Assembly (NCBI GenBank): GCA_026002875.1
Contig: BPGE01000001.1
Span: 558,001-622,000 of the forward strand
DNA length: 64,000 nucleotides
Source of the DNA: Bryobacteraceae bacterium
GTDB lineage: Bacteria > Acidobacteriota > Terriglobia > Bryobacterales > Bryobacteraceae
Direction: 5' to 3'
A program made the position numbers and the translations under genes. A model generated the notes under the pieces. That model was not told the origin of the DNA. It made no database searches and saw only the letters and a list, made by a program, of their open reading frames with translations. Shown piece by piece: positions 227 through 26,213 of the stretch. The number at the start of each line of letters is the position of its first letter. Positions within the stretch are counted from its first letter, which is position 1.

Positions 227-1273
227 ATGGGTTTTGCCCGGACCGGATTCAACCGGATCGCCATTGTGGGCGCAGGCGCGCTGGGCAACGAGCTGTTCCG
301 CCAGGCGGGGCTGCTGGGCGTGCGCGAGGCCGTTCTGATCGACCCGGACCGGGTGGAGCCCTCGAATCTCGCCAAGTGCGCATTTTTCCGGGTTCCGGGC
401 GCCACCGGAAGGCCGAAGGCAGAGGTGCTGGCGGAGATCGGCCGCGCGTGGTTTCCCGAGACCCGATGGATTCCGGTTGCACGGGAGATCGCCGATTCAG
501 GGTGGGGACTGCTGAAGGATTGCGATGTGCTGTTCGGATGCGTGGACCGGGACTCGGCGCGTCTGGAGATGGCGCGCATCTCGACGCGGCTGGAGGTGCC
601 GGTCTGCGACGGAGGCATGAGCACGGCGGGCGCGGCGGCGGGAAGGGTGACGTGGTTTCCGGGGCGCGAAGGCGCCTGCTTCTGCTGCCGGCTGACCGCG
701 CGCAGAAGGCGGGAGTATCTGCAGACGTGGTCCAGCGCGGCGCACCCGTGCAGCGTGCCCGCCGAGCCGGGAGGATGGAGCGCCACGCCGGCGCTGGCGG
801 CGGTCACGGCCGCCCTGCAGGCGCACTGGGCGGCTGAATGGCTCAGAAAGGAAGAGCCGGAGGCGCGCAGCATCGAAGTGCGGCTCGAGGAGCCCCTGCG
901 GCTGGAGCTGCTGAAGATTCCGCTCGATGAGAGCTGCCCGTTCCACGCGGCGGGAGCGCCGCTGGTTCCTGTCGAAGGGCCGTTCGAAAACGCGCTGCAG
1001 CCAGGGCAGGCCATCGAGTGGGAGTGGCCGCTCTGCCTGCGGGCGCGATGCCTGGATTGCGGCGCCGAGTTCGAGCCACGCCTGAGGGCGGCGCGCCTGC
1101 GGCGTGAAGGGACATGCCCGGCGTGCGGCAGCCGCCGGCTGCTGGAACTCGACACCCGCCGGCGCATCGCGCACGGCGACCCGCTGGCGAAGGAAACGCC
1201 GCGGGATCTGGGCTTGCCCGCCGAACACCTGTATAGTATTCGAGAGGGATTCCCGGTGGAGGAGATGGGATGA
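227..1273 (+). CDS. ThiF/E1-like adenylyltransferase (ubiquitin-activating type)
   Basis: 348 residues. The N-terminus is a Rossmann nucleotide-binding fold with a GAGALG loop (residues 15-20), an acidic strand end (IDPDRVEPSNL, 38-48) and Lys50 where most family members have Arg. This is the layout of ThiF/MoeB/E1 enzymes, which adenylate the C-terminus of a ubiquitin-like protein. Cys-rich segments follow (C151, C153, C154, C175), and the C-terminus carries a zinc-ribbon-like pair (C275/C278 with C297/C300). The ATG at 227 is chosen because the Rossmann fold starts right after it and a GGCGGAG site precedes it. It overlaps the next gene by 4 bp (ATGA). Neighbours encoding a Ubl and an E2 suggest a conjugation role rather than thiamin or molybdopterin synthesis. 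Which cysteine would carry the thioester is not clear. Confidence 0.85.
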   Translation: MGFARTGFNRIAIVGAGALGNELFRQAGLLGVREAVLIDPDRVEPSNLAKCAFFRVPGATGRPKAEVLAEIGRAWFPETRWIPVAREIADSGWGLLKDCDVLFGCVDRDSARLEMARISTRLEVPVCDGGMSTAGAAAGRVTWFPGREGACFCCRLTARRRREYLQTWSSAAHPCSVPAEPGGWSATPALAAVTAALQAHWAAEWLRKEEPEARSIEVRLEEPLRLELLKIPLDESCPFHAAGAPLVPVEGPFENALQPGQAIEWEWPLCLRARCLDCGAEFEPRLRAARLRREGTCPACGSRRLLELDTRRRIAHGDPLAKETPRDLGLPAEHLYSIREGFPVEEMG

Positions 1274-1977
1274 GCGCACGCAGCATTTCGGTCCTGGCGG
1301 CGGCCGCGTTCCTGCTGACCCTTGTCCAGTTTTTCGCGGCGATGGCCGGACCGGGTGTTGCGGCGGCGGTCAGCCTGCTGCTGGCCTTTCTCTCCGTCGC
1401 GCTGCTGAGGATGTTCGAGGCGGAGCTGCCCAACCCGTGGCTGGCCGTAGCGCCGCCGTTCACGGCCGGCCTGCTGGGCGTGTTTCTGTGGAGCCTGGCG
1501 CAGCCCCGCATCGACCGCCTGTACTGGCTGGCGCCGGCGCTGGCTGCGGGGATGGCGGCGGCCATCGTCTGGTGGCAGAACCGGGACGCCCGCCGGTGCG
1601 CGCTCTGCAACTGCCGGATGGCCGGGAAAATTTCTTTTGTCTGCCCCCGGTGCAATCTGGAAGTGTGCGAGACAAAATGCTGGGATTTTGAAAAAATCCG
1701 CTGCCGGCTGTGCGTGCAGAATTCCGTGCCCCTGTTTCCGCCCAACCGGCAGTGGTGGGACCGGCACGTGGGGCCGCCGGCGCTTCAGGGGCGTTGCCAG
1801 GTCTGCCAGGTCGGCCCGGAGGAGGCCGACTTGCGCACCTGCCCGAAGTGCGGCCGTCCGCAGTGCATCGAGTGCTGGGACGATTCCAACGGCCTGTGCG
1901 CCCGCTGCGGCTGGCGCGTCCAGGCATTGCCGGAAACCCTCAAGATATTTCTGACAGACCAATCCCAGGGGGGGTAA
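1270..1977 (+). CDS. Membrane protein with two RING-like (C4C4) zinc modules
   Basis: 235 residues. The N-terminal half is hydrophobic, with about four probable membrane helices (roughly 7-27, 29-47, 57-77, 84-102). The C-terminal half holds two cysteine clusters. The second reads C176-x2-C-x11-C191-x2-C-x4-C199-x2-C-x7-C210-x2-C213. The first has the same outline (C110, C113, C125, C128, C133, C137, C145, C148). Eight metal ligands in paired CxxC steps with this spacing are typical of cross-brace RING or related binuclear treble-clef domains. Lying between E1-, Ubl- and E2-like genes, it is a candidate membrane-bound E3-type adaptor. The E3 role is inference; a generic zinc-ribbon pair is the alternative. 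Confidence 0.75.
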   Translation: MSARSISVLAAAAFLLTLVQFFAAMAGPGVAAAVSLLLAFLSVALLRMFEAELPNPWLAVAPPFTAGLLGVFLWSLAQPRIDRLYWLAPALAAGMAAAIVWWQNRDARRCALCNCRMAGKISFVCPRCNLEVCETKCWDFEKIRCRLCVQNSVPLFPPNRQWWDRHVGPPALQGRCQVCQVGPEEADLRTCPKCGRPQCIECWDDSNGLCARCGWRVQALPETLKIFLTDQSQGG

Positions 1978-1981
1978 ATTT

Positions 1982-2242
1982 ATGCCGAAATATCAGATGT
2001 ATTTCGACACGATTCAGGGGGAGACGAAGTACAACGTCGATATTGACGACAGCGAGATTCTGGACGACGTTCTTCACGAAATCCTGTACGATCTGAGAGA
2101 ACGCGGCGACGTTTTGCAGGGCGAAGGAGAGCCGCAGGTCGTCTGGAACGGGGTTGCGCTCGACTTCCGGCGGCCTCTGCCCGAGCAGGGCGTCCGTCCG
2201 AACGACGTTCTCCGCGTCTCCACCGTCGCCACCAACGGCTGA
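1982..2242 (+). CDS. Small ubiquitin-like (beta-grasp) protein
   Basis: 86 residues, the size of ubiquitin. It starts 4 bp after the RING-like gene behind a GGGGGG tract. The predicted order (two strands to about residue 20, a helix around 24-41, then strands near 52-63 and 75-83) fits a beta-grasp fold, and VVWNGVALDFRRPLPEQGV resembles the middle of Ubl domains. The final residue is Gly86, so the C-terminus could be activated without processing, although it is Asn-Gly rather than Gly-Gly. The stop overlaps the E2 start (TGATG), implying coupled translation. Probably the modifier of the cassette. Sequence alone is weak evidence for Ubl; the neighbours carry most of the weight. Confidence 0.7.
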   Translation: MPKYQMYFDTIQGETKYNVDIDDSEILDDVLHEILYDLRERGDVLQGEGEPQVVWNGVALDFRRPLPEQGVRPNDVLRVSTVATNG

Positions 2243-2754
2243 TGACGCAGGCCGCTTTCGAGCGGATCCGGGAACGGCGGATCCGCAACGAATGGGAGTG
2301 GCTGCTCCGGACCGCGGCCGCCGATCCCTCCGCCCTGGCCGTCCCGCGCGAACCGGGCGGCCTCGTCCGTCTTCCGGAGACGCCATGGTACGCGCCTGAC
2401 GGCGCCATCCGCGAGGGTCTGGCGGTCCGGTTCACGTTCCCGGACTACTATCCTTCCGTGCCGCTGGAGGCGTGGCTCGCCGAACCTGCGCTTCATCCCA
2501 ACGTCCACCCCGAAACCGGTTTCGTGTGCCTGTGGGACACGCGTCACGAGGGAGCTTCGCTGGTGGAGGCTATACTGCAGTTGCAGCGGGTGGTCACCTG
2601 GCACCTGTACAACCTGTCGGCCGATCATCTGATGCAGCCCGGGGCCGGGCCGCGCCCGGCGCTGCCGTACCGGCCGGTTCACCCGCCTCCCGAATACTAC
2701 AGGGAGCGCACCGCCGGTTTTCTCCCCGCCAACCGGCGAAAAAGACTAAGCTGA
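2242..2754 (+). CDS. E2-like ubiquitin-conjugating enzyme
   Basis: 170 residues. The core shows the classical E2 sequence order: a FTFPDYYPSVP strand-turn (64-74), an HPN motif (85-87), then the presumed thioester cysteine Cys96 in GFVCLWD (93-99) and a C-terminal helical segment. In eukaryotic E2s the cysteine lies eight residues after the Asn; here it is nine, a one-residue insertion. The start overlaps the Ubl stop codon, and the kinase gene follows after 12 bp. The protein would accept the Ubl from the E1-like enzyme and pass it to a target, perhaps with the membrane RING-like protein. Confidence 0.85.
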   Translation: MTQAAFERIRERRIRNEWEWLLRTAAADPSALAVPREPGGLVRLPETPWYAPDGAIREGLAVRFTFPDYYPSVPLEAWLAEPALHPNVHPETGFVCLWDTRHEGASLVEAILQLQRVVTWHLYNLSADHLMQPGAGPRPALPYRPVHPPPEYYRERTAGFLPANRRKRLS

Positions 2755-2766
2755 TGGAAACCCGCC

Positions 2767-4587
2767 ATGTCGAACGCCTCCCGTAACGCCCTCCGCGCCG
2801 CGCTGCATCAGGTGCTTGGCGACAAGTACGAGATCCTGCAGTGGATCGGCGGCGGGGGCATGGCCGAAGTCTTTCTGGCGCGGCACCGCGCCCATGGAGG
2901 GCTGTTCGCCATCAAGGTGCTGGCGGAACAGCTGGCGGACGAGCCGGAAATCGTCGCGCGCTTCATGGACGAGGCGCGCACGGCAGCGACGCTCGGCGGC
3001 CACCCCAACATCGCGCCCGTCTTCGACGTGGGCGAGTGGGGTTCGCTGCATTACCTGATCATGCCCTACATCGAGGGCGAGGACGTCAAGAGCTACCTGG
3101 AGCGGCACGGCAGGCTGGAGCCGGCGGAGGCGGTGACGATCATCCGGCAGGTGGCTGAAGCGCTGGTGTGGGCGGGCGAGCGGCGGTTCGTGCACCGGGA
3201 TCTGAAGCCGGCCAATATCCGCATTGACACGAGCGGACGGGTGATCGTGCTGGACTTCGGCATCGCCAAGGCGGGCGACGCTCCGAGCGCCCGCACGCGG
3301 GCGGGAGAGACGCTGGGCACGCCGTACTACATGTCGCCCGAACAGATCCGCGCCGAGCCGTGCGATCACCGCAGCGACCTGTATTCGCTGGGCGTGATCT
3401 TTTTCGAACTGCTGACCGGAATGAAGCCCTTCACCGGCGACAGCTACCGGGCGATCGAGATCGGGCACTGCCAGAAAACGCCGCCGGCGCTGAGCACGAT
3501 CGTGCCGGACATCGACCCGGAACTGGAGCGGATCGTCAACCGGCTTCTGGAGAAAGACCGCGAACGGCGCTATCAGACGGCGCGCGAACTGCTGGAGGAT
3601 CTGCGCCACTCTTACCGGATGCAGACGGAAATCCGGCTGGAGCCGGTGATCGACCGTCCGGATCTGCTGGAAGCCGCGCGGAGTGGCGCGGCGGGGGAAG
3701 AGTTCGAGGCGCCGCCCGCGGCGGAGCCGGTTCCTGCTCCGGCGCCGGAACCCAAAGCGCCGCCCCGGGGCGGCAGGTCCCGCGCCCCGCTGTATGTCGT
3801 TGCGGTTCTCGCCGCCGCCGCCGTTGCCGGAGGGATTTACTTTGTCCGGCAAAAGAGCGAGAATGGGGCGAAATCCGGGGAGGCGGCGAAACAGCAGGAA
3901 ACGCCGCAACGCGAACTGCCATCCGTCGTGCAGGTCGAGGGCACGACCATGTTTCTGGTGCGGGAGGGGCCGTTTCTGTTCGGCGACGACAGCCCCGAGT
4001 CGCCGAATCCGAAAGCTGAGATCCGCCTGCCGGCGTTTTATATGGATGCAACGGAAGTCTCCAATCAGCAGTACGCGCGTTTTGTCGCCGCCACCGGACA
4101 TCCGGCGCCGCCGTCGGAGGAGTATTCGTCCTCTCCCTCGCTGCCGGTGACGCACGTCAAGCTGTCCGACGCCCGCGCCTACTGCGCGTGGGCTGGCAAA
4201 CGGCTCCCGACAGAGCAGGAATGGGAGAAAGCGGCGCGGGGCGAGGATGGGCGCATCTACCCGTGGGGCAACCAGCCGATGCCGAACCCCGGCTCGCTCG
4301 TTCCGGTGGACGACTACCCGGAACGGCAGAGCCCGTACCGCATTCTGGGTCTGTCGGGGAACGTGTTCGAGTGGGTGGACACGCCCTTCCCGGTGACCGA
4401 CCGCGAGATCGAAGACATGCGGCGCGCGCTGGGCTCGGCCAGCGTCAGCCGCGAGTGGTATTGCATCAAGGGCGGAAGTTTTCTGCTCAGGGACGAGCGG
4501 TTTTTGCGTGTATATATGCGGAGGGGTTGGCCCGCTGACCTGCCCCACGCAGCAATTGGATTCCGGTGCGTGAAAGATGCCCAATAA
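2767..4587 (+). CDS. Membrane Ser/Thr protein kinase with FGE-sulfatase ectodomain
   Basis: 606 residues. The kinase domain (about 21-285) has a Gly-rich loop (IGGGGMAEV), Lys50, HRDLKPAN with Asp145, the DFG motif at 163-165 and a GTPYYMSPEQ activation segment, so it looks active. A Pro/Ala-rich linker leads to one membrane helix (about 341-360). The outer part (about 391-604) resembles the formylglycine-generating-enzyme/sulfatase-modifying fold (AFYMDATEVSNQQYARF, then RLPTEQEWEKAARG and YPWGN). Such ectodomains often serve as ligand-binding C-type-lectin-like folds rather than enzymes. The gene is 12 bp after the E2 gene and overlaps the next by 11 bp, so it is probably co-transcribed with the conjugation cassette. 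FHA proteins encoded nearby are plausible phospho-readers. Confidence 0.9.
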   Translation: MSNASRNALRAALHQVLGDKYEILQWIGGGGMAEVFLARHRAHGGLFAIKVLAEQLADEPEIVARFMDEARTAATLGGHPNIAPVFDVGEWGSLHYLIMPYIEGEDVKSYLERHGRLEPAEAVTIIRQVAEALVWAGERRFVHRDLKPANIRIDTSGRVIVLDFGIAKAGDAPSARTRAGETLGTPYYMSPEQIRAEPCDHRSDLYSLGVIFFELLTGMKPFTGDSYRAIEIGHCQKTPPALSTIVPDIDPELERIVNRLLEKDRERRYQTARELLEDLRHSYRMQTEIRLEPVIDRPDLLEAARSGAAGEEFEAPPAAEPVPAPAPEPKAPPRGGRSRAPLYVVAVLAAAAVAGGIYFVRQKSENGAKSGEAAKQQETPQRELPSVVQVEGTTMFLVREGPFLFGDDSPESPNPKAEIRLPAFYMDATEVSNQQYARFVAATGHPAPPSEEYSSSPSLPVTHVKLSDARAYCAWAGKRLPTEQEWEKAARGEDGRIYPWGNQPMPNPGSLVPVDDYPERQSPYRILGLSGNVFEWVDTPFPVTDREIEDMRRALGSASVSREWYCIKGGSFLLRDERFLRVYMRRGWPADLPHAAIGFRCVKDAQ

Positions 4588-5512
4588 GACCCATTCCGCT
4601 ATTGCCGGCCTTCTGACGGCCGCGCTCGCCGGTCTGCTGGCGGGCGCGCAGGGGCCGCAGATCAACGCCCGCGACGCCTTTTTTTCCGCCGCCGACATGG
4701 TGGCAGTGCAGAAGAAGACAACTGCCAAGAAATCGGCCAAGACCGTGCCGGTGCGGCGCGAAGAACCCGCGCGCCCGGAAGGCGCCAAGGCAGCCGGTCC
4801 GAAGCCGGAACTGGCCGCCGCGCCGCCGCTGCGCGACGCCGAATCGTATTTCCAGAAAGTCTCGCTGACGCCCGAAACGGCGCCTCCGATGGGGCTGCGT
4901 TACAGCCTGCTGAAGCGGACGCCGCAGGGCCTGGTGGAGGTCAGCACGGACACGGAGTTCCGCGCGGGCGACAGCATCCGGCTGAGCGTCATGGGCAACC
5001 GGCGCGGATACCTCTACGTGATTGCCCGGGGCTCGAGCGGCGTCTGGTCGCCCCTGTTCCCGCATCCGGAGTCGTCGCAGCTGAGCAACGAGATCGTGCC
5101 GGGGCGGCTGTATCAGATCCCCGGCGGCGAGGGCGAGTATTTCACGTTTGACGAACAGCCGGGGGAGGAGAAGCTGTTCGTGCTGTTCTCCTCCCGTCCG
5201 GTCGACGATCTGGAGGAGCTGATCGGGACGCTGTCGGGCAAGCGCGCTCCGGCGCCGGACCGGCCCGCCCGGCCTGCGCCCGCTCCGACGCTGTCGGCTT
5301 CCAACCGGTACAACGACGCGTGGATGGAGAGGTTCCGCGCACAGGTGCAGTCGCGCGATCTCGTGTTCACGAAGGTGGAGAAGGACACGGCGGCCGCGCC
5401 CGCGCCTGTCGGTTCCGGCGCGGAGGCGGCGGTCTACGTGGTGAACGCTTCCACGTCCGGCGCGGCCGGCGCAGGAAAAGTGGTGGCCGAGCTAACGTTG
5501 CGGCACCGGTGA
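4577..5512 (+). CDS. Exported DUF4384-domain protein
   Basis: 311 residues. A signal peptide-like N-terminus (hydrophobic to about residue 24) is followed by a Lys/Ala/Pro-rich linker and a DUF4384-like domain (about 105-215). The domain is marked by FRAGDSIRLSVMGNRRGYLYVIA and by a late LFVLFSSRPVDDLEEL segment. DUF4384 domains are common in envelope proteins encoded beside bacterial caspases and kinases; their biochemical role is unknown. The gene overlaps the kinase gene by 11 bp and shares the domain with the next gene, so the two look like a diverged tandem pair. The function is not assigned. Confidence 0.75.
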   Translation: MPNKTHSAIAGLLTAALAGLLAGAQGPQINARDAFFSAADMVAVQKKTTAKKSAKTVPVRREEPARPEGAKAAGPKPELAAAPPLRDAESYFQKVSLTPETAPPMGLRYSLLKRTPQGLVEVSTDTEFRAGDSIRLSVMGNRRGYLYVIARGSSGVWSPLFPHPESSQLSNEIVPGRLYQIPGGEGEYFTFDEQPGEEKLFVLFSSRPVDDLEELIGTLSGKRAPAPDRPARPAPAPTLSASNRYNDAWMERFRAQVQSRDLVFTKVEKDTAAAPAPVGSGAEAAVYVVNASTSGAAGAGKVVAELTLRHR

Positions 5513-5543: not shown

Positions 5544-6311
5544 ATGCATCACTGGTTCATACCTCTTGCGGCCACGTGTTTCCTGGCGGGCAGTCTGCCG
5601 GGCGCCCCGCCTGGCGCCTCGGCCCGCCCCGGCGCATCGGCCGGTGAAAGCGCCCCGCTGAAGGGCGGACTCGACGCCCATCCGGGGGCCGGCGGACCCA
5701 AGCGGATCGAAATTGTCGTTGAACGCAGCGAGCGCGGAGAGGCGCGGCGCGCGGATCCCAGCCAGGTGTTCCGCACCGGCGATCTGGTGCGGTTCCGCTT
5801 CCGCGCTTCTTTCAACGGCTACCTGTACGTGATGAACCACGCCACTTCGGGCAACTTCGTCCTGCTGTTCCCGAAGGAAGAAACGGGGATGATGAACCGG
5901 ATCGAAGCCGGGCGGGAGTATCTCGTGCCGATGACGGAGAACGGCTGGTTCCGGCTGGAAGGACCGCCCGGCTACGAGGTCGTCTACTGGCTGGTGAGCC
6001 CGGTGCGGCTGAGCGACGGCCAGAGCGCGCTGACGGTTCCCCGGCTCCCGGCGCCGGCGCCGCACCTGAATCCCTCGATCACGCCGCGTTGCGACGACAC
6101 AATTTTCCGCGCGCGGGGCGAATGCATCGACCACGCGGCGGGGCTGAAGCCGATCGAGAAAAACGCCGCGCTGCCGGAGAACCTGAGCGGGTTCGCCGGA
6201 GCGGCGTCGCGCGAGCTGACGTTCGTGAAATCGAACAAGGCGGCAGCCGTGGCCGTGCAGGATGACAGCGAGGAGCCGTTCATCTACACGCTGCGGCTGG
6301 CGCACCGCTAG
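5544..6311 (+). CDS. Second exported DUF4384-like protein
   Basis: 255 residues with an N-terminal signal peptide (hydrophobic to about residue 20). The domain (about 52-160) repeats the landmarks of its neighbour: a FRTGDLVRFRF strand, FNGYLYVMN, then LLFPKEE and VVYWLVSPVRL. It begins 31 bp after the preceding gene behind a purine-rich leader (GGAGGAG) and ends 12 bp before the caspase gene. The acidic patches could bind cations, but nothing enzymatic is visible. It probably works in the periplasm with the caspase-like protein and the kinase ectodomain; that partnership is inferred from the operon only. Confidence 0.7.
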   Translation: MHHWFIPLAATCFLAGSLPGAPPGASARPGASAGESAPLKGGLDAHPGAGGPKRIEIVVERSERGEARRADPSQVFRTGDLVRFRFRASFNGYLYVMNHATSGNFVLLFPKEETGMMNRIEAGREYLVPMTENGWFRLEGPPGYEVVYWLVSPVRLSDGQSALTVPRLPAPAPHLNPSITPRCDDTIFRARGECIDHAAGLKPIEKNAALPENLSGFAGAASRELTFVKSNKAAAVAVQDDSEEPFIYTLRLAHR

Positions 6312-6323
6312 AGGGAGCGATTC

Positions 6324-8420
6324 ATGACAGCCCGCCTGGTGCTGATCCTGATTGCCGCGGCGGCCGCCGCGCAGACTCCGCCTGCCGCTCCGGCTGAGCA
6401 GCAGCGGGACCTGAAATTCACGCGCGAGCCCGCTGCGCCCGTAGTGAAGCCGGGCGACAGCGTCGTCATTCCGCGCAGTTATGCGCTGGTCATCGGCATC
6501 AGCGAATACCCGAACCTGCCGCCGCAGGGCCAGCTCCGGTTTCCGGCGCGCGACGCCGCGGCGATTTATGCGGCTCTGATCAGCCCGGAGGGCGGCCAGT
6601 TTCCTCCGGAAAACGTGCGCCGCCTGATCGGCAAAGACGCAACGCTGGCCAACATCCGGCAGGCGCTCGAGCAGTGGCTGCCCTCGGTGTCGAAGGACGA
6701 CGACCGGGTGGTCATTTATTTCGCCGGACATGGATTTGTCGCGGGGGGCAAGGCGTATCTGGCCCCGTACGACATCGACCCGAACGATATCCCGGGCACT
6801 TCCTACTCCATGGAGAAGCTCGGCCGGGTGATCGGGGCGGACATCAAAGCGAAGTGGAAGGTGCTGCTGACCGACGCCTGCCACTCCGGCGCCATCACGC
6901 CGGAAGCCGACACGCGCCAGATCAATGCGAGCCTGCTCCAGCTGGACCGCTCGCTTTTCTCGCTCACCGCCAGCCGCGACCGCGAGCAGTCCTTCGAGAG
7001 CGAAATCTGGGGCGGCGGCCACGGAGTATTTACGTACTACCTGATCAAGGGAATCGAAGGCGAAGCCGACGAAAATGGCGACGGCGTCGTCACGGCCGAC
7101 GAACTCGGCGAGTACGTCCGCGTCAATGTCCGCCGCGATACGAAGACCCGGCAGAACCCGACGGCGGAGCGCGGCAGCTACGATCCCAACATGATCCTCG
7201 CCTTCAATCCGGCGCGCGCGCCGGCTGCGCCGCTGCAGCCGCCGAAATTCGGCGCCCTGGTGATCGAAAGCAACATGGACGGCGTGGAAGTGTTCGTGAA
7301 CGGCAAGAGCCAGGGCGTCGTGAACAAGGACAAGCCGCTGCGCCTGCCGGGCATTCAGCCGGGCGTGCACGTGATCCAGGGGGTCCGCATGGGCTACGAG
7401 CCCGACGGGCCGCGCGAAGAGACGGTCTATCCGGGACAGGAGACCACGGTGACGCTGCGGATCACGATCCCGCGCGTGCGGAAGCGCTCGGCGGTGGATT
7501 CCTTCAATGAAGGCATGGAGTTTTACCAGAAGGGATTCGAGAAAAATTACCTGAAGGCCGCAGATTTTTTTCGCAAGGCGCTGAATGAAGACCCCAAATA
7601 CAGCCAGGCGGCGCTGTATCTGGGCCGCACATATCACGCCCTGTACGATTACGAAAAAGCGCGCAAGGCCTTCGAGCAGGCCATCTCGATCGACCCGGAT
7701 TACGCCGAGGCGCAGGCGTCGTTTGGCGGAATGCTGCTCGATGTGGGCGACCTCGACGCGGCGATCCGCCACCTGACGGCGGCCTACGGGCGGGACGCTT
7801 CCAACTCTCTGACGCCAGCCCTGCTGGCCCAGGCGTTCACGCGGAAGGGGGCGTACGAGGAGGGGATCAAGTACGCCCGCGAAGCGATCCGCCTGAACCC
7901 GGCGCACGGCGAGGCGCATTTCTGGCTGGCCGAGGCGCTGCGCTTCAACAAGCGCTGCCCCGAGGCCATCCCCGAATACCAGCAATACCTGCGGCTGAGC
8001 GATTTCGACTCGAAGCTCGCCGGCAAGCTGAATTACTACGTGCTGGGCTACCTGGCGGGCATCGGGAGGAAGAAGCGGGCGGCGCAGACCGACATCTGGC
8101 GGGAGCTGCAGTTCATGGCGAACTTCGGGCTCTGCGACTGCGAGCGCATCGGGCGCCGGTATGAAGAGGCGGCGCGCTGGTGCCAGCAGGCGCTGCGGCT
8201 GGATCCGTCGGATCTGTACGCCCACTACGCGCTGGGGCTGATTTTCACGGAGAAGTTCAACCAGTCTTCTTCCGCCGGCTATCTGTCGGCCGCCCGCAGC
8301 CACTTCGAGAAAGTGATCGCGCTGAACCCGGACACGAACGAAGCCGAGAGAAGCCGCAATTATCTGGCGCGCATCAGCCAGGTGGTCTCCCAGCTGAGCC
8401 AGGGAGGCACGGCCCCTTGA
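6324..8420 (+). CDS. Exported caspase-like peptidase (C14) with PEGA domain and TPRs
   Basis: 698 residues. After a signal peptide comes a caspase-hemoglobinase domain (about 52-290): the catalytic His136 lies in YFAGHG and Cys186 in DACHSG, so both dyad residues are present. Near the end of the domain an EF-hand-like acidic loop (DENGDGVVTADE, 249-260) suggests calcium dependence, as in metacaspases. A PEGA-like beta domain (about 305-375) and a long TPR array (about 395-690) follow. Such proteins cleave after basic or acidic residues in other systems; the target here is unknown. It lies 12 bp after the DUF4384 gene, in the same run as the Ubl cassette, and could be an effector of that signalling pathway. 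Confidence 0.88.
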   Translation: MTARLVLILIAAAAAAQTPPAAPAEQQRDLKFTREPAAPVVKPGDSVVIPRSYALVIGISEYPNLPPQGQLRFPARDAAAIYAALISPEGGQFPPENVRRLIGKDATLANIRQALEQWLPSVSKDDDRVVIYFAGHGFVAGGKAYLAPYDIDPNDIPGTSYSMEKLGRVIGADIKAKWKVLLTDACHSGAITPEADTRQINASLLQLDRSLFSLTASRDREQSFESEIWGGGHGVFTYYLIKGIEGEADENGDGVVTADELGEYVRVNVRRDTKTRQNPTAERGSYDPNMILAFNPARAPAAPLQPPKFGALVIESNMDGVEVFVNGKSQGVVNKDKPLRLPGIQPGVHVIQGVRMGYEPDGPREETVYPGQETTVTLRITIPRVRKRSAVDSFNEGMEFYQKGFEKNYLKAADFFRKALNEDPKYSQAALYLGRTYHALYDYEKARKAFEQAISIDPDYAEAQASFGGMLLDVGDLDAAIRHLTAAYGRDASNSLTPALLAQAFTRKGAYEEGIKYAREAIRLNPAHGEAHFWLAEALRFNKRCPEAIPEYQQYLRLSDFDSKLAGKLNYYVLGYLAGIGRKKRAAQTDIWRELQFMANFGLCDCERIGRRYEEAARWCQQALRLDPSDLYAHYALGLIFTEKFNQSSSAGYLSAARSHFEKVIALNPDTNEAERSRNYLARISQVVSQLSQGGTAP

Positions 8421-8499: not shown

Positions 8500-9444
8500 A
8501 TGAGCCTCTACCAGACGCTCTACTTCATGTCCCTGGCTGGAGGTTTCGCCGGGCTGCTCTCCTGGGGGCTCACCGCTCTTCTGTCAGCCACGGCTCTTTC
8601 CAACCGCCCCGCGCTGGCCGATCTTGCCGCCGCCGCGGTGCTCGGACTGATGATCGGCCTCCTGACGGTGGCGTTCTCGGACAAATGGTCGGGCAACCGG
8701 GTGGTGGGCCGCTACGTGCTGGCCGGAGGGGGAATCGGACTGGCGGCCGGCATTCTCGGGGGTCTGGCCATGATCCCCATCACGCAGAACCTCGGCGATG
8801 GATTTCCGTTCCTGGCCCGGCTGCTGAGCTGGACTCTGGTGGGCAGCCTCATCGGGCTGGGGCTGGGACTGCGGTGGGTGATGGCGAACAAGATGCGCGT
8901 CGTCCACGCCTGCCTTGGCGGGCTGGTGGGCGGCGCGATCGGCGGCTCGCTGTTTCACGTGCTGGGCAGCCGCATCCCCGATCTGACGCAGGCGCTGGGA
9001 TTCGTGCTTGTCGGCGTCGGCATCTGCTTCGGCGTGACGCTGGCCCCCATTCTGCTGCGCGATGGCATCCTGAAGTTCGTCTCGAGCGGCGACGCGCGCG
9101 CGCAGGCCAAGTTCGGCCGCAGCGGAAAGGAGTGGGAGATCCGCCAGGGCGACACGCTGCTGATCGGCTCGCAGTCGCTGGACCTGAACAAAACGGCGTT
9201 CGCGGTGGGCGTGCAGGTGTTCATTCCGGACGCGGCCATCGCGCCGCGCCATGCGATCCTGTTCGGCAAAGACGGGCGCTTCTACATCGCCCGCCACCCG
9301 GACATCAACAATCCGCAGGGGCTCGCGCGTTACGTGCTGCGCGTGCGCGGGCGGACCGTGACGACATCGCAGGAATTGCGGGCTGGCGACGATATCCTGG
9401 TCGGCCGCACGGCCATCAAGTTCCTGACCAAGAAAGAAGGCTGA
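8500..9444 (+). CDS. Polytopic membrane protein with C-terminal FHA domain
   Basis: 314 residues. The first 185 are very hydrophobic, with about six Gly/Leu-rich helices. The rest (about 200-312) looks like an FHA domain: a strand ending LLIGSQSLDLN, then IAPRHAILFGKDGRFYIA and a late DDILVGRTAIKF strand. FHA domains bind phosphothreonine, so this may dock proteins phosphorylated by the kinase upstream. FHA proteins also regulate type VI secretion in Proteobacteria. The VWA gene follows after 20 bp. The canonical FHA serine/asparagine ligands are only partly recognisable, so phosphopeptide binding is not certain. Confidence 0.75.
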   Translation: MSLYQTLYFMSLAGGFAGLLSWGLTALLSATALSNRPALADLAAAAVLGLMIGLLTVAFSDKWSGNRVVGRYVLAGGGIGLAAGILGGLAMIPITQNLGDGFPFLARLLSWTLVGSLIGLGLGLRWVMANKMRVVHACLGGLVGGAIGGSLFHVLGSRIPDLTQALGFVLVGVGICFGVTLAPILLRDGILKFVSSGDARAQAKFGRSGKEWEIRQGDTLLIGSQSLDLNKTAFAVGVQVFIPDAAIAPRHAILFGKDGRFYIARHPDINNPQGLARYVLRVRGRTVTTSQELRAGDDILVGRTAIKFLTKKEG

Positions 9445-9464: not shown

Positions 9465-10940
9465 ATGAAAACGGGCAGCCTCGGACTCGCCGTGGCGGCG
9501 GTTTTCGCTTTCGCCGCCGCGCCGGCATCCGGCCAGAATCCCGGGCTCGACTTCGCGGAACCGCTCAAACTGGTTTCCTGCGAGCCGGCTTCCACCGTTC
9601 CCTGCTTCCGCATGAAGCTGAATCTGGTGGATGGCGCAGGGCAGCCCTACAACGCGCAGCTGCCGCCTCCGGACAAGCTGGCTTCGCAGATCACCGTAAC
9701 GATGGGCGGGCAGCAGATCACGCCGTTTTACGCCACCGCGGCGGGCGAATCCGTGGCCAAGGTGCGCGGGCGGGCGGCGCTCGTGATCGTCGACATCTCC
9801 GGAAGCATGAAGAAGGTGCTTCCGACAGGCCAGACGAGGTTCGAGGCGGCCAAGATGGCCGTCAAATCGTTTCTGGGCCAGTTCGAGGAAGGCGTGGACC
9901 GCATCGCCGTCGTGCCGTTCGAAAGCCATCTGGTGCGCGAGCGGATCGAATCGGCGGTGTTCGCCCGGACGCGCTCGGCGGCCATCGCGCAGGTCGACGC
10001 ACTGCCGGAGCCGGAGCTGAAGAACAACACGGCGCTGTTTTCCGCCGTCGTGTTCGGCGTCGAAACGCTGCGCAACGCCCTGCCGCGGCTGGAGAAGGAG
10101 ATGGGCGAGACGCCGGAGGCGATGGTGATCGTGCTGACCGACGGCAACAACGAGGTGCTGAAGGGCGACGACCTCGGGCTGCTGGCCGGCCCGGCCGGAA
10201 TGGACGAAGCCTCGCGTTACGCGCGGCAGGCGCCGTTCCCGGTGATCGCGATCGGCTTTGGCGAGCCGGGATCGATCGACGAGGCGGCGCTGCGCCAGAT
10301 CAGCACGAAATACTATCTCGCCTCCGACTATGAAGGGCTGCGGCGGATCTTCACGTTCACGCGCACGTTTCTGAACAACCGTCTGTCGGCCACCTTCTCG
10401 TCTCCCTATCCGGACCGCGCCTCGCTGGCGGGCCAGAACCTGCCGGTGACGGTGGAACTGAAGCTGCCCAACGGGCAGGTGCTGCGATCGCCGGAGGTGC
10501 TGTGGTCGGCGCCGCAGATGGGCGTGCCCGTCTATGCAGGCAAGTGCACGCCGGACGAAATGAAGGCCGTGCTGCAGAATCTGCCCGTGAGCGCGGGGTG
10601 GACATCCATCATCCGCCCTCTGGGTGTTTTCATCGGCCTGGCTTTATTGCTGTTGTTGATGTGGCACTGGGTGCCCCGCCTGATCTGGCCGGAGCAGTTC
10701 ATCGGCGTGATGCCAGGCACGGGGGCGGGCCAGGCCAAGTGGGCTTCGCAGACAAGGATTGTCAACGGCGTCATCGCCGGACGCCCGGCGCCGCCGGGAT
10801 TCCAGAAAGGGCCGGGCGGCGTGGCCATGCCGCCGCGCAGCGCCGGCGACGCGACTGTGGTCAATCCGCAGGCCCATCGCGATTTTTCCCAGACGCGGCT
10901 TGGCAACCGCCAGGGTCCGGGTCCGAGGGAGCCGTTCTAG
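9465..10940 (+). CDS. Exported VWA-domain protein with C-terminal membrane anchor
   Basis: 491 residues. A signal peptide (about 1-23) is followed by a strand-rich segment and a von Willebrand A domain (about 103-315) with an intact MIDAS start, D110-x-S-x-S114. A membrane helix lies near 380-402, with a Pro/Gly-rich tail. MIDAS domains bind ligands through a divalent metal. The start is placed at the ATG preceded by AGGAGG (9452-9457), although the same frame is open further upstream inside the FHA gene. It is the last gene before the hairpin that precedes the secretion system. It may help anchor or sense at the envelope; this is inference. Confidence 0.8.
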   Translation: MKTGSLGLAVAAVFAFAAAPASGQNPGLDFAEPLKLVSCEPASTVPCFRMKLNLVDGAGQPYNAQLPPPDKLASQITVTMGGQQITPFYATAAGESVAKVRGRAALVIVDISGSMKKVLPTGQTRFEAAKMAVKSFLGQFEEGVDRIAVVPFESHLVRERIESAVFARTRSAAIAQVDALPEPELKNNTALFSAVVFGVETLRNALPRLEKEMGETPEAMVIVLTDGNNEVLKGDDLGLLAGPAGMDEASRYARQAPFPVIAIGFGEPGSIDEAALRQISTKYYLASDYEGLRRIFTFTRTFLNNRLSATFSSPYPDRASLAGQNLPVTVELKLPNGQVLRSPEVLWSAPQMGVPVYAGKCTPDEMKAVLQNLPVSAGWTSIIRPLGVFIGLALLLLLMWHWVPRLIWPEQFIGVMPGTGAGQAKWASQTRIVNGVIAGRPAPPGFQKGPGGVAMPPRSAGDATVVNPQAHRDFSQTRLGNRQGPGPREPF

Positions 10941-11016: not shown

Positions 11017-11523
11017 ATGCCGCTAGTCAAGGTGATTCGCAAGGGGGTGACGCCCTCGGTGCGAAAGGTGCCCACGTCGACGGCCGCCGTCATGCTGCCC
11101 ATGACCCTGAACCGGGTGGGCAAGGAGGCGGCCTCGGAAAACGAGGAGCTCGTCAAGGTCGAGGACCTGAACGACGCTTTCGCCAAGTTCAAGCCGGAGC
11201 TGAACTTCAAGGCCACGGCAGGCCCTGAGGAGACGGAATTCCGCGCCGAATTCAAGTTCCGCTCGATGAAGGATTTCGATCCGGAAAACCTGCAGAAGAA
11301 GCAGGAATTCCGGGACGAGGAAGGCAACATCACATACGCCCGGAACGACATCGCCGACCTGAAGGCGAACATCGATCTGCTGTACCGTCTGAAGGACCGC
11401 TGGAAGCTGCCGGCCGTGCGCCGGGCCTGGAACAGCGAAGAGCAGCGCGGCGAGATCATCCGCGCCTTGGGCCGGCTGCGCGAAGAATTGCAGAAGGTCG
11501 CCGGGAAGGGAGGGGCTGACTAA
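11017..11523 (+). CDS. tssB: Type VI sheath small subunit TssB (VipA)
   Basis: 168 residues, the usual TssB length. TssB and TssC form the contractile cytoplasmic sheath. Family features are the N-terminal strand region, the segment VEDLNDAFAKFKPELNF, which matches the TssB 'L.ay.P.L.~' region, the FRSMKDFDPENL motif and a helical C-terminus. A GAGAGGAG site precedes the ATG. The stop codon abuts the tssC start (TAAATG). It is the first gene of the injection-system operon, after a hairpin and a 52-bp gap. Confidence 0.93.
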   Translation: MPLVKVIRKGVTPSVRKVPTSTAAVMLPMTLNRVGKEAASENEELVKVEDLNDAFAKFKPELNFKATAGPEETEFRAEFKFRSMKDFDPENLQKKQEFRDEEGNITYARNDIADLKANIDLLYRLKDRWKLPAVRRAWNSEEQRGEIIRALGRLREELQKVAGKGGAD

Positions 11524-12858
11524 ATGGCTGAATTGGTTGAAACCCGCACAACGGCCGAAATCCTCGGCGAAAGCGCCGCGAAGGAGCTGCTGCAGGAGAT
11601 TTTCTCCGACCTCCATCCGGGCTTCATGGACGAGTCGCGCACGATCTCGTCGATCTTCACCCCCCAGTCGGCTGCGGACTTCCTCAAGCAGCTCATGGAC
11701 CTCGAGAACCTGCTGTCGGTCGAGGACTCCTATGAGCAGACGGTGAAGAAGATCCAGCAGCAGATCGACAAGGCGGAGGCGATCCGCGACGAGCTGCTCG
11801 AGAAGCTGTTCGCCCAGATCCGCCCCATCGAGCGCAGCTACCGCCAGATCCAGCTGTTCTTCGAGAACTCGAAGGTGATGGACGGCAAGGTGCGCAAGCC
11901 GGTGGAGCTCTACGTTCTGAACGCCGATGCGAAGGCGATGAAGGACGTCTTCTCGATGAACATCGCCGCGGTGGAGAATTTCGTCCGGAAGAGGAACGAC
12001 AACTTCAATTTCCGCGACGACATCTGCAACCTGGTGGTGCCGGGCATGATCCCGCAGCCGGTCCGCGAGAAATTCGAGGACATCGCCAACATGTGGGGCA
12101 TGCTGCTGATCACGGACGTCGACGACGAGAAGTCGTTCAAGAACCTGGAGCGGAACTTCCTCCCCGGCGGCAAGTACGAATTCATGAAGCGGCCCGAGGA
12201 CCGCGCCGCAGCCGACGTCGTCTGCTCGGGCTACCTGATGGCGAGGCCGAAGCACTGGTTCGAGAAGACGGTCGACGGCGGCGACGACCTGTACGTGCCG
12301 CCCTCGCTGGTCTTCGCCGGAGCGGTGGCGCGCGCCGACGACGGGCAGGGCATGGCCCAGGGTCCGATCGGATCGCGCTTCGGCCAGATCGTGGGCGTGG
12401 AGAAGGTGCGCTTCGAGCCGCTGATCGGCGAGATGGAGCACCTTTCCATGGAGCGCCAGCTCATCCCGATCATCCGCGACGCGGACAACCATCTGTGCTT
12501 CTTCGGCTGCCGCACGCAGGCCGAAGACCCCAACGGCGTGCTGAAGTTCTTCACGAGCTACCGCATCCTGCGCTATCTGGAGCGCTGCTGCCGCCACTAT
12601 CTGCTGCAGGTGGCCGGCCAGGTGCTGACGCGCGACTTCATGGAAGAGAGCATCGAGAAGCCGCTGAAGCGCCTTCTGGACGAGCAGGTGGAGCAGGGCA
12701 CGATCCTCGGCTACGACCTGTTCGTCGACAAGGACTCCAACAAGCGGATGCAGGGCATCTGCGACATCAGCCTGAACGTGATGCCGACAGGCCCGGCCGA
12801 GACCTTCGTTCTGAAGATCGACACGCCGGAATTCGCGAAAGGCGAGCAGAAGCAGTGA
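11524..12858 (+). CDS. tssC: Type VI sheath large subunit TssC (VipB)
   Basis: 444 residues, within the TssC range. It is the large sheath subunit, paired with TssB. An extended N-terminal helix region (TAEILGESAAKELLQEI) precedes a central domain with conserved blocks such as LVVPGMIPQPVREKF and GSRFGQIVGV. Near the C-terminus lies GICDISLNVMPTGPAETFVL, a strand region used in sheath interlocking. It is translated directly after tssB with no gap, consistent with equimolar production. No sign of degradation. Confidence 0.93.
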   Translation: MAELVETRTTAEILGESAAKELLQEIFSDLHPGFMDESRTISSIFTPQSAADFLKQLMDLENLLSVEDSYEQTVKKIQQQIDKAEAIRDELLEKLFAQIRPIERSYRQIQLFFENSKVMDGKVRKPVELYVLNADAKAMKDVFSMNIAAVENFVRKRNDNFNFRDDICNLVVPGMIPQPVREKFEDIANMWGMLLITDVDDEKSFKNLERNFLPGGKYEFMKRPEDRAAADVVCSGYLMARPKHWFEKTVDGGDDLYVPPSLVFAGAVARADDGQGMAQGPIGSRFGQIVGVEKVRFEPLIGEMEHLSMERQLIPIIRDADNHLCFFGCRTQAEDPNGVLKFFTSYRILRYLERCCRHYLLQVAGQVLTRDFMEESIEKPLKRLLDEQVEQGTILGYDLFVDKDSNKRMQGICDISLNVMPTGPAETFVLKIDTPEFAKGEQKQ

Positions 12859-13404: not shown

Positions 13405-13887
13405 ATGGCCGCTTCGCCATACCGGTGCACCGTCACCATCGACGGGACCAAGTTCGACGCCGTGTCCACCTCGGTCCGTTTCCACACGGACAAGGACCGC
13501 ACGGGCATGCCGCAGATGGGCAGCCTGAACACGAAGATCCGCGTCATCGCCGATTTTCACGATGACAAGAACCTGCCGTTTTCGGCCCTGAAGAAGTTCT
13601 TCGATCTGGCCAACGTCGTCACGCGCGAGAAGATCAAGGACATCAAGATCGAATACTGGAAGGACGACAGCCACGAGGACGCGCTGGTGAGCTTCGCCTT
13701 CAAGGGCTGGATCAGCCGCTTCGAGACGTCCAATCCGCATCCGCTGGGCCTGGCGGCGCTGCGCACGGAGGAGGAGTTCGCCAACAACCCGGCCACGGCC
13801 TATCCGAGCCTGAACCACGTCCTGGTGCTGGATCTCGAGCCCACGCTCAACCAGGAGAAGTTCAAGGACATCAAGATCAGCAAGTAA
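13405..13887 (+). CDS. hcp: Hcp-like tube protein (TssD), copy 1
   Basis: 160 residues. An Hcp/phage-tail-tube-type beta-barrel protein that forms the inner tube expelled on sheath contraction. The start region (YRCTVTIDGTKFDAVS) and the block FFDLANVVTREKIKDIKIEYWKDDS are shared almost residue for residue with the next gene. Copy 1 carries an extra loop near 110-130 (HPLGLAALRTEEEF) that copy 2 lacks. It is preceded by GGAGGAAGAG. Two tube paralogues suggest either mixed tubes or one being a carrier for effectors. Confidence 0.88.
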   Translation: MAASPYRCTVTIDGTKFDAVSTSVRFHTDKDRTGMPQMGSLNTKIRVIADFHDDKNLPFSALKKFFDLANVVTREKIKDIKIEYWKDDSHEDALVSFAFKGWISRFETSNPHPLGLAALRTEEEFANNPATAYPSLNHVLVLDLEPTLNQEKFKDIKISK

Positions 13888-13920
13888 GAGGCGCGTCAGA
13901 AGGAGCAAGGAGGATCAGCC

Positions 13921-14358
13921 ATGCCGAATCCCTATCGCAGCACCGTCACGATTGACGGAACCAAGTTCGAGGCCGTGAGCACGCAGGTCGTCTTCACGAC
14001 GGACAAAGACAAGGCGGGCATGCCCGAAATGGGCAGCCTGAAGACGCGCATCCGCGTGTGGGCCGATTTCCACGACGACAAGAACCTGCCCTACTCCAGC
14101 CTGCAGAAGTTCTTCGACCTGGCCAACGTCGTCACGCGCGACAAGATCAAGGACATCAAGATCGAGTTCTGGAAGGACGACAGCCACGAGGACGCCCTGT
14201 GCTGCTACAAGTTCAAGGGCTGGATCTCGAATTACGAAGTCTCCAATCCGCCGCTCGAAATGGCCGGGCCGTCGGAAGGGCTCAACCACATGATCGTGAT
14301 GGATCTGGAGCCCGTTCTGAACCAGCAGAACTTCCAGGAGATCACGTTCAGCACCTAG
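13921..14358 (+). CDS. hcp: Hcp-like tube protein (TssD), copy 2
   Basis: 145 residues, roughly two-thirds identical to copy 1 by eye, with the same start (MPNPYRSTVTIDGTKFEAVS) and the DLANVVTRDKIKDIKIEFW block. It lacks the copy-1 insertion. A strong AAGGAGGA site precedes it. The tube gene is followed by a GC-rich hairpin (14386-14401), which could help keep hcp transcripts more abundant than the baseplate genes downstream. Confidence 0.88.
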   Translation: MPNPYRSTVTIDGTKFEAVSTQVVFTTDKDKAGMPEMGSLKTRIRVWADFHDDKNLPYSSLQKFFDLANVVTRDKIKDIKIEFWKDDSHEDALCCYKFKGWISNYEVSNPPLEMAGPSEGLNHMIVMDLEPVLNQQNFQEITFST

Positions 14359-14837: not shown

Positions 14838-16538
14838 ATGCCATACCAGCGCGCCACGGCGATCGAAATCGACAGCAAAATGCGGGAGGATTTCCGCAAA
14901 CGCCTGAAGGAATATGGCGTCAGCGCGGAAACCACCGACCCCGTTCTCGCCGTCCTGTTCCGGACTTTCGCTCAGCAGCTGGAGAACCTCTACAGCGACA
15001 CCGGCCGCATCCGGCTGGCTCTGCTCGACGAGCTGATCGCCGGCCTGGGCATCGAGCCGCGCAAGGCGCGCCCCGCGCAGGCGGTCGTGCGCATTCTGGG
15101 CGCTTCGTCCCCGGTTCACATCGACGCCGGCGCCCTGCTCCGCAGCCAGTCTCCGACAGGAGAGCGGTTCAACTTCAGCACCGACGCTCCGGTCACCGTC
15201 TCCGGCGCGCAGATCGTGTTCGGCGCGGCTTACGAGAAGAACCAGTTACGCGTGCTGCCGGGCGTGGAAATGCCCGAGCAGCTCCTTGCGGCCAGGCCGG
15301 CTCTCGACCCCGTCAAGGTCAACCTCGGACCGAACCCCGCGCTGTTTCTGGCCGTGCAGCCTGCAGGAAAGGAGCATCTCAGCGGCCACAGCGTATATTT
15401 CGATCTCACGCCCGACGCCCGCCCCGTTCAGGAGGCGCTGGCCAGCGAGACCTGGTGCATGGCGGGGCCGCACGGCGAATTTTCGGCCAACGGAATTCTG
15501 CGCCCCCGCCCGGCCAATGCCGGCCTGCGCCGCCTGGAGTGGCTGGTGCGGGCTGCCGCCGCCGGTGCTCCGGAGGAGGTTCAGGACAAGACGCCGCAGC
15601 TGCCGCCGGGCTTCTACGCCGGCCGCGTGTTCCTGCTGCCTGCGATTCCTCCCGAACGGCAGTTCGTCTGCGCGGTCCCGCGCGGTCTGGAGCCGCCGCT
15701 GGGCCGCATCTTCGGGCGCGAGGCCCAGCACCTGTTCTCCCAGCCGCGGGTCTGGATCAAGATCACGTTCCCGCGCGACATCCCGCCGCTGCACACGGCC
15801 GTCGGCGGCGTGTTCCTGCATGCCATCACGGCGTCCAACGTCGAGTGCTTCAACCAGACGATCGTCTTCGAGAAACACGGCACGTCGATTCCCATCAGCC
15901 GGGAGGGCGGCACGGACTGGCAGCTGGTGTCGCCCCTGTCGCTGATCGGCGAAAATGACACGCCCTACCTCGACGAGATGGCGCCGTCGACCGACCCGAA
16001 CGTGGGCCGCTATGCCATCCGCAACGGCCGCATCGAGATCACTCCGGCTCGCTGGCCCGACGGACGTCCGCAATCGCAGGTCAACGTGCGCGTCTGGATC
16101 AGCGCCGGCGAAGCGGCCAACCAGGTCGGCCCCGGCATGATCACGTCGATCGAGCTCAAAGGCACCGGCTCTTCGCTGCGCGTGCTGAATCCGACGTCCG
16201 CGGCTGGCGGCACCAGCAGCGAGTCGTTCGCCACGGCCCAGGAGCGGTTCTCCGCGGCGCTGCTGTCGCGCGACCGCGTGGTGACGCGCGCCGACCTGCT
16301 GGCCGTCGTGCGCGCCTTCGACCGGCGCATCCGGGACGCGCGCGTGTCGTCCGCCGTCGAGCGCGTCGGCGGCGCGCTGCGCCGCGTCGAGCGTGTCACC
16401 GTCTCGCTCGACCGCGAGGACTTCACCGATCCGGAACTCGAAGCCTCCTATCTGCGCGACGAGCTGCAGTCTCTGCTCGCCTCGCGCTTCCTGCATGACA
16501 TCGACCTGAGCGTGCGCACGGAGTGGGTGGAGCCATGA
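14838..16538 (+). CDS. tssF: Baseplate protein TssF-like (VasA/ImpG, gp6/J-like)
   Basis: 566 residues. The N-terminus (DSKMREDFRKRLKEYGVSAE, then DPVLAVLFRTFAQQLENLY) and the ALLDELIAGLGI segment match the start of TssF proteins. The C-terminal third (DRVVTRADLLAVVRAFDRRI, then a valine-rich strand and LLASRFLHDIDL) resembles baseplate J/gp6 domains. It would form the wedge with TssG and TssE. The stop overlaps the tssG start by 4 bp (ATGA), the normal tssF-tssG pairing. Divergence from proteobacterial TssF makes the exact family call less firm than the role. Confidence 0.8.
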   Translation: MPYQRATAIEIDSKMREDFRKRLKEYGVSAETTDPVLAVLFRTFAQQLENLYSDTGRIRLALLDELIAGLGIEPRKARPAQAVVRILGASSPVHIDAGALLRSQSPTGERFNFSTDAPVTVSGAQIVFGAAYEKNQLRVLPGVEMPEQLLAARPALDPVKVNLGPNPALFLAVQPAGKEHLSGHSVYFDLTPDARPVQEALASETWCMAGPHGEFSANGILRPRPANAGLRRLEWLVRAAAAGAPEEVQDKTPQLPPGFYAGRVFLLPAIPPERQFVCAVPRGLEPPLGRIFGREAQHLFSQPRVWIKITFPRDIPPLHTAVGGVFLHAITASNVECFNQTIVFEKHGTSIPISREGGTDWQLVSPLSLIGENDTPYLDEMAPSTDPNVGRYAIRNGRIEITPARWPDGRPQSQVNVRVWISAGEAANQVGPGMITSIELKGTGSSLRVLNPTSAAGGTSSESFATAQERFSAALLSRDRVVTRADLLAVVRAFDRRIRDARVSSAVERVGGALRRVERVTVSLDREDFTDPELEASYLRDELQSLLASRFLHDIDLSVRTEWVEP

Positions 16539-21410: not shown

Positions 21411-21414
21411 CCCG

Positions 21415-26130: not shown

Positions 26131-26213
26131 AACGCCCGGCGGGCGGAGGATTGCTCCCTCGTTCTCGTAATGATATGTAGGGAAGACGCCCGCAGGCTGT
26201 GAAAGGATCGGAG

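Follow-up and report, generated by a model that had tools for sequence, protein, structure and literature searches.

Bacterial ubiquitin-type pathways that have been studied are mostly tied to phage defense. Operons combining a RING protein with an E1, an E2, a ubiquitin-like protein (Ubl), and sometimes a JAB-type protease were reportedly predicted in prokaryotes by Burroughs, Iyer, and Aravind in 2011, who are said to have read the RING proteins as likely E3s and to have proposed that YukD-like Ubls are conjugated. We know of no RING protein or secretion partner in the Bil, Bub, or Cap2 systems, the last belonging to the cyclic oligonucleotide-based antiphage signaling systems (CBASS). Here, we describe a four-gene cassette in the order E1-RING-Ubl-E2, identified by open reading frame and profile analysis at positions 227 to 2754 (+ strand throughout) of a 64,000-nucleotide stretch of a Bryobacteraceae genome (G000:C1:558001-622000; 4.86 Mb, one contig), hereafter the window. 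The cassette lies upstream of a type VI secretion system (T6SS) gene cluster, and its four proteins probably form a ubiquitin-type conjugation pathway that serves that machine specifically.

With the 2011 RING operons the cassette shares its enzyme set, and the Prok-RING profiles match cassette RING proteins; it seems to depart from them in its two-module RING protein with a membrane part and in its association with T6SS, FHA-membrane, and vWA genes. We cautiously place it as a variant on bacterial RING/E1/E2/Ubl operons. A Ubl-type E1 and an E2 are also features of Bil, Bub, and CBASS Cap2, and our E1 profile finds the BubCD and Cap2 structures, whereas the cassette encodes its E1 and its E2 as two distinct proteins. 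In the available excerpts of Iyer et al. 2006 (PMC1779556), bacterial gene clusters 6a to 6e hold E1, E2, JAB, and Ubl genes, one cluster type carrying a small presumed zinc-finger protein; E1-like, E2-like, Ubl, and JAB genes stand together there as here. A RING gene in such a cluster is not found in those excerpts, and "type vi" has 0 occurrences in the text of PMC1779556.

A literature search covering titles and abstract openings, with subscription papers and preprints mostly outside its coverage, returned no T6SS-linked Ubl cascade. A cassette associated with an injection machine would add a second cellular role for such pathways and point to a few candidate substrates. It would also offer a small system in which to study RING and E2 function in bacteria and the possible control of a T6SS by a protein modifier. 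The association with one kind of T6SS, seen in nearly all relatives examined, suggests a possible bacterial use of ubiquitin-like tags in building or controlling such a machine.

A recurrent E1-RING-Ubl-E2 cassette in Acidobacteriota

The intergenic spacing within the cassette is -4 bases for E1/RING, +4 for RING/Ubl, and -1 for Ubl/E2. A preliminary description of this DNA had called the four genes overlapping, which is accurate for E1/RING and Ubl/E2 but not for RING and Ubl, which lie apart. Its account of the products (an E1, a membrane double-RING protein, a Ubl of 86 residues with a terminal Gly, and an E2 carrying HPN and Cys) agrees with ours, and the gene-order survey in Acidobacteriota that it proposed gives E1-RING-Ubl-E2 in 13/13 distinct cassettes. 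As the identical four genes stand in identical order in 13 distinct loci, the cassette is beyond chance. A complete Ubl/E1/E2/RING set with conserved catalytic and metal-binding residues is the best supported reading of these genes, and from it we infer conjugation.

Relatives were sought in 396 Acidobacteriota genomes and in 61 genomes of the family, the source genome being in both samples. For many genomes the search scored just part of the first-look candidates, so that genome counts throughout are lower bounds. An E2 profile built from four sequences matches 11/396 phylum genomes, the Ubl profile matches 7/396, and the window Ubl matches 3/61 family genomes; a contig scan with E2, the sole search reaching outside the phylum, yields 3 loci, all from close relatives. 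The 13 cassettes comprise the phylum and family matches, the contig-scan loci, and G659 and G490, which were found with another E2. Two duplicates were excluded (L032 = L003 and L087 = L005), as were the E2 matches in G179, G143, G110, and G025, which on reading belong to other E1/E2 operons. Locus L003 (DYJN01000050.1) is labeled Arcobacter; identity to the window's proteins runs from 76% for E1 to 99% for TssB, and the label looks wrong.

E1 and E2 enzymes

The E1-like protein (227..1273, + strand, 348 aa) is a ThiF-family adenylyltransferase by its Pfam match (ThiF, 6e-23), with a C-terminal zinc ribbon (7.8e-5, below the cut-off). It has the nucleotide-binding fold, GxGxxG, Asp, Lys, and family Cys of a ThiF-type E1. 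Its profile matches UBA7 (1.2e-21), ThiF (4.5e-20), and Citrobacter BubCD (1.2e-17) in the PDB, as well as the NEDD8 E1, MoeB, and Cap2. Residues G15, G17, G20, D39, N47, K64, D107, D128, and C175 are invariant in 13/13 loci and D41 in 12/13; C175 is conserved in 13/13 together with all seven further E1 ligand positions that were checked. Cys175 aligns with a Cys of the source genome's other ThiF-family protein and is, by eye, of the MoeB/ThiF type.

The E2 (2242..2754, + strand, 170 aa) is of the UBC type, with HPN85-87 and Cys96. Its own match to UQ_con is at 2e-4, below the Pfam cut-off, and the same profile matches 11/11 E2 members of alignment A3 at E ≤ 1 (best 1.4e-8). PDB matches of the E2 profile begin at about 1e-4 and include UBE2K, over residues 4-120, and UBC9, in the HPN-Cys region. 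The search against UBC that the preliminary description had suggested returns UQ_con, UBE2K, and UBC9, with HPN and Cys96 at the sites it gave. H85, N87, and C96 are invariant in 13/13 loci, and P86 is kept in 12/13.

Two other roles can be weighed on these enzymes. A ThiF-family E1 with MoeB-like paired CxxC-type ligands would suit a sulfur-carrier or cofactor pathway based on ThiF/ThiS-like chemistry, yet we find this scarcely credible for a set in which every locus has a RING protein and an E2 whose H, N, and Cys are invariant and the conserved neighbors identified are T6SS, FHA, and vWA genes. The weak match of E1 to PADLOC E1-E2 profiles (best 2.7e-7), like the PDB matches to BubCD and Cap2, would be expected of a Bil-type or CBASS Cap2-type antiphage conjugation system located beside the T6SS by chance. 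The chance of this seems faint to us. At E ≤ 1, PADLOC has no family matching RING, Ubl, or E2, and E1 scores far below the NCBIfam cut-offs, so that by the curated profiles of NCBIfam and PADLOC the cassette is not assigned to Bil or another listed antiphage system; homologues of E2 and Ubl were not found in plasmids, nor of Ubl in viral contigs; and the T6SS linkage is recurrent and survives rearrangement.

RING-like membrane protein

Between the E1 and Ubl genes lies a 235-aa membrane protein (1270..1977, + strand), a candidate E3 with two C4C4 RING-like modules. By hydropathy its hydrophobic segments lie inside residues 1-76, and its Cys residues form two equal C4C4 sets at residues 110-148 and 176-213, with one extra Cys at 115. 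Each module has eight metal ligands, with treble-clef spacing as judged by eye. Across loci, 15/16 Cys columns are conserved in 13/13 and one in 12/13, being missing from G490. A profile search of the RING modules, also called for at the outset, gives Pfam matches to Prok-RING_2 (0.001) and Prok-RING_1 (0.032), both in the second module and both below curated cut-offs (19.6 bits for the window copy against 22.4 for Prok-RING_2), and PDB matches of the RING profile, again in the second module, to EL5 (0.0037), RLIM (0.0048), NOT4 (0.0066), and Arkadia (0.008). At E ≤ 1, Prok-RING_2 matches 6/11 cassette RING proteins (best 1.8e-4) and Prok-RING_1 matches 5/11.

Ubl fold, C terminus, and processing

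The Ubl (1982..2242, + strand, 86 aa), which ends in Asn-Gly, has no match in Pfam or NCBIfam. An AlphaFold2 (AF2) model with pLDDT 86.8 and pTM 0.74 has the element order beta-beta-alpha-beta of a beta-grasp, and a Foldseek search with it places ubiquitin at the top (E = 2e-4, probability 1.00, TMq about 0.6, rmsd about 4). A predicted beta-grasp fold for this protein, named beforehand as a test, is borne out by the model and its likeness to ubiquitin. The Foldseek search also finds, at 1e-3, a chain of the ESX-5 type VII complex, which we take to be EccD with its ubiquitin-like domain.

This ESX-5 match and the single C-terminal Gly could also be read as signs of a Ubl that acts as a noncovalent assembly or structural part, the role proposed for YukD in type VII secretion, with E1 and E2 just activating or presenting it. 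Such a role strikes us as quite improbable, given that E2 Cys96 and E1 Cys175 are invariant in 13/13 loci and unneeded for it; type VII systems are not known to have a linked E2 or RING, and we know of no E1, E2, or RING linked to YukD. In its favor, YukD, which resembles this Ubl in having the ubiquitin fold and in its link to secretion, is reported as not conjugated (PMC1779556), yet required for YukE secretion (PMC3701619).

The Ubl ends in a single Gly (NG) in all 11 loci where it is a separate protein. In G242 and G490, Ubl and E2 form one open frame, a natural in-frame fusion (L023:5334-6194 and L088:8154-8996) with a JAB-type protease gene directly after it; the fusion junction reads GGG in G242 and GAG in G490. 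The JAB gene of G242 matches Prok-JAB at 7.5e-12, and its G490 homologue is 50% identical. A JAB protein beside a Ubl-E2 fusion is a typical Ubl-processing partner, and we count this arrangement as favoring the proposed pathway. The 11 separate-Ubl loci should need no trimming because their Ubl already ends in NG; two JAB queries gave no match there within the stretch read around the cassette, and the source genome has one Prok-JAB match, away from the cassette.

Association with a T6SS

Homologues of an FHA-membrane protein and a vWA protein accompany 13/13 cassettes. In the window, the former (8500..9444, + strand) is multipass with a C-terminal FHA-like domain (FHA, 0.044, below the cut-off), and the latter (9465..10940, + strand; VWA, 1.3e-12 in a scan of a longer frame) has hydrophobic segments at its N and C termini. 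The FHA-membrane profile matches 8/396 phylum genomes, namely the same 7 that match the Ubl profile and G204, where the match is weak and partial. TssB and TssC accompany 12/13 cassettes and fall within the stretch read in 11. A TssC profile matches 6/396 phylum genomes at E ≤ 1e-20 and 3/61 family genomes, and all 6 and all 3 have the Ubl. The cassette contig of G490 ends partway through the FHA gene, and a second contig opens partway through a vWA gene and continues with TssB, TssC, Hcp-like, VgrG, TssF, TssG, TssK, and ClpV genes; because of where these breaks fall, the two contigs probably adjoin.

The linkage of the cassette to FHA, vWA, and T6SS genes persists through changes of gene orientation. 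In the window's family the cassette reads toward the T6SS across intervening kinase, DUF4384, and caspase genes; at L020, L021, L022, L024, L025, and L086 the cassette and FHA-vWA-TssBC are transcribed divergently, and in G242 and G490 the cassette is codirectional with FHA. Judged by gene content, the steady partners are thus the FHA-membrane protein, the vWA protein, and the T6SS of one family.

Median pairwise identity is 0.72 for Ubl (13 loci) and 0.74 for TssC (12 loci), and 0.33 for E1, 0.33 for RING, and 0.36 for E2 (13 loci). By this measure the Ubl changes about as slowly as the sheath while the enzymes drift, as would be expected if it contacts several conserved partners. Distances of the cassette and of TssC are correlated (Mantel r = 0.82, 0/5000 permutations, n = 12), which fits joint inheritance and is by itself no proof of function. 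With TssBC and Hcp-like genes linked and the modifier about as conserved as the sheath, the cascade might instead tag T6SS cargo (effectors, Hcp/VgrG-bound proteins) for loading or quality control, and not the machine. We hold this to be unlikely, since the G242 cassette keeps the FHA-membrane and vWA genes without a detected TssC, making the membrane signaling pair the constant partner.

Proposed pathway

In the conjugation pathway that we favor, the E1 would adenylate the C-terminal Gly86 of the Ubl, the Ubl would move as a thioester onto E2 Cys96, and the membrane RING protein would recruit the Ubl-loaded E2 to the inner membrane, promoting transfer to a lysine of a nearby protein. We infer this order, from E1 to Cys96 to RING-assisted transfer, because the protein families imply that chemistry, and an inner-membrane site is suggested by the hydrophobic parts of the RING protein and its neighbors. 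Among possible targets, the FHA-membrane and vWA proteins and any baseplate or sheath component of the T6SS that docks there would be the likeliest; the first two lead as target or receptor candidates because they are kept with the cassette even in G242, and T6SS parts come next. The Ubl would most likely serve assembly, anchoring, or licensing of the machine, under the control of the linked kinase where present. A bolder version, tentative and in our view rather doubtful, is that covalent Ubl attachment by the membrane RING ligase may be a built-in step in the assembly or anchoring of one T6SS lineage, possibly replacing part of the usual membrane complex, with the Ubl both modifier and structural part. 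If true, this would be, to our knowledge, the first secretion machine with a dedicated ubiquitin-type conjugation cascade.

Several observations weigh against a dedicated pathway of this kind. Sequence alone is insufficient to establish the Ubl fold, as a profile of 11 Ubls matches ubiquitin-like domains in the PDB at E of 0.13 or worse; of five AF2 models, 2/5 are confident and 3/5 poor (43-52). The E2 model, made from 4 sequences, has a pLDDT of 50.8, too low for a structure search, and profile support for RING identity, at E of about 0.001-0.01 in the second module, is weak. The Ubl C terminus has one Gly preceded by Asn in place of GG, and the G490 fusion junction lacks GG as well. The 13 loci are not independent, coming from a single phylum with some close kin; the Mantel correlation could be explained by shared descent alone; and absences in the genome searches are soft. 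Finally, G242 has the cassette, FHA, and vWA, but TssC was not detected in its assembly (950 contigs, 90% complete); the 1.65 kb of contig past vWA holds an opposite-strand frame, and TssB was not found there.

Genes between the cassette and the T6SS

A Ser/Thr kinase gene (2767..4587, + strand) follows E2, its product combining a kinase domain (Pkinase, 1.3e-46), a transmembrane segment (hydrophobic residues 342-360), and an FGE-sulfatase domain (2.8e-43). After it come two lineage-specific DUF4384 proteins (4577..5512, 8e-12, and 5544..6311, 1.3e-12, both + strand) and a lineage-specific caspase-fold peptidase with tetratricopeptide repeats (6324..8420, + strand; Peptidase_C14, 1.8e-15). Profile scans confirm the kinase, the caspase, and the downstream T6SS cluster that had been named as neighbors. 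A homologue of the window's kinase adjoins E2 in 9/13 loci. Caspase and DUF4384 were rejected as core partners because their homologues occur in 5/13 loci (the window, G438, L004, G572, and G441, all of the window's family), with 15-20 kb examined around the remaining loci. Beside E2, L025 has a metallophosphatase (Pfam) and L022 a similar protein (by eye); in G242, a PP2C gene precedes E1.

PpkA, PppA, Fha, and TagR form the threonine phosphorylation pathway of T6SSs. Comparable elements (kinase, FHA, vWA, and FGE-type domains and, in one relative, PP2C) lie near the cassette or the T6SS genes here, whereas the PpkA/PppA/Fha/TagR pathway is not known to include Ubl conjugation genes.

T6SS cluster of the window

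All T6SS genes of the window are on the + strand. TssB, TssC, TssG, TssK, VgrG, and a ClpB/ClpV ATPase are identified by profile, TssF weakly, and Hcp without a profile match. The TssB-like (11017..11523; T6SS_VipA, 9.4e-6) and TssC-like (11524..12858; TssC PF17541, 1.3e-28, no NCBIfam match) sheath subunits are followed by two tandem Hcp-like tube proteins (13405..14358; 13405-13887 and 13921-14358), labeled by size and position; neither has an NCBIfam match, the first also lacks a Pfam match, and homologues adjoin TssC in relatives. The baseplate is represented by TssF-like and TssG proteins (14838..17443), TssF by TIGR02243 (1.5e-4, below the cut-off) with no T6SS Pfam match in the scan and TssG by T6SS_TssG (3.2e-11). 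A VgrG-like spike (17302..19008; Phage_base_V, 3e-21; Phage_GPD, 6e-10; vgr_GE, 1.7e-28) has a frame that starts upstream of the true start. The TssK baseplate adaptor (21400..23367; T6SS_VasE, 4.9e-6; TIGR03353, 2.8e-13) precedes a ClpB/ClpV-type AAA ATPase (23446..26130), for which ClpB (1e-285) outscores ClpV1 (8e-222) and which is ClpV by place.

TssE was not identified among these genes in the profile scans. TssM PF06761 is matched 0/1 in the source genome, a weak negative because the TssM of G179 was found by PF14331 and not by PF06761; DotU was not searched genome-wide. A firm claim that TssJ, TssL, and TssM are absent was dropped, as it rested on that single weak test. By our own reading of the open reading frame list, no coding-strand frame above 1000 aa lies wholly within 227-32365. 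The TssG-like protein (16523-17443) has an N-terminal PASTA domain match (1.2e-7), and a gene inside the cluster (26199-28295) combines 3-keto-disaccharide hydrolase matches with a C-terminal FHA domain. Just past the cluster (32468-35529), a sigma-70-like gene is followed by a Ser/Thr kinase-like gene, both by eye.

Other Ubl operons in Acidobacteriota

G179 (L026:7941-13569; L048, G179:C1) has a different operon, DnaJ-E1-Ubl-E2-JAB, about 1 kb from a canonical T6SS with TssK, TssL, TssM, and TssF (Pfam); the gap holds an opposite-strand frame. Its Ubl matches YukD at 0.0075, below the cut-off, and ends in EGGLR. This is possibly a second Ubl/T6SS neighborhood, and it may be due to chance. 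Ten more genomes match the G179 E2 at 2.3e-14 or better, 9 with E1 and JAB homologues nearby and the tenth, L080 (3 kb fetched), with E2 alone. Queries with G179 T6SS genes gave no match in the stretches read from these ten genomes, save a weak one to ClpV in L079 (9e-6), a weak negative since the same queries missed the window TssF and grazed TssK. A rule that acidobacterial Ubl cassettes adjoin T6SSs is unsupported, one different operon doing so and the stretches read from the ten genomes with a related E2 giving no firm sign of it. In L027, L028, and L029, where no T6SS was noted within the stretch read, we observe by eye still other acidobacterial operons with E1, E2, and Ubl-like genes and zinc-finger proteins, joined by JAB-like genes in L027 and L029 and by an AAA ATPase in L027.

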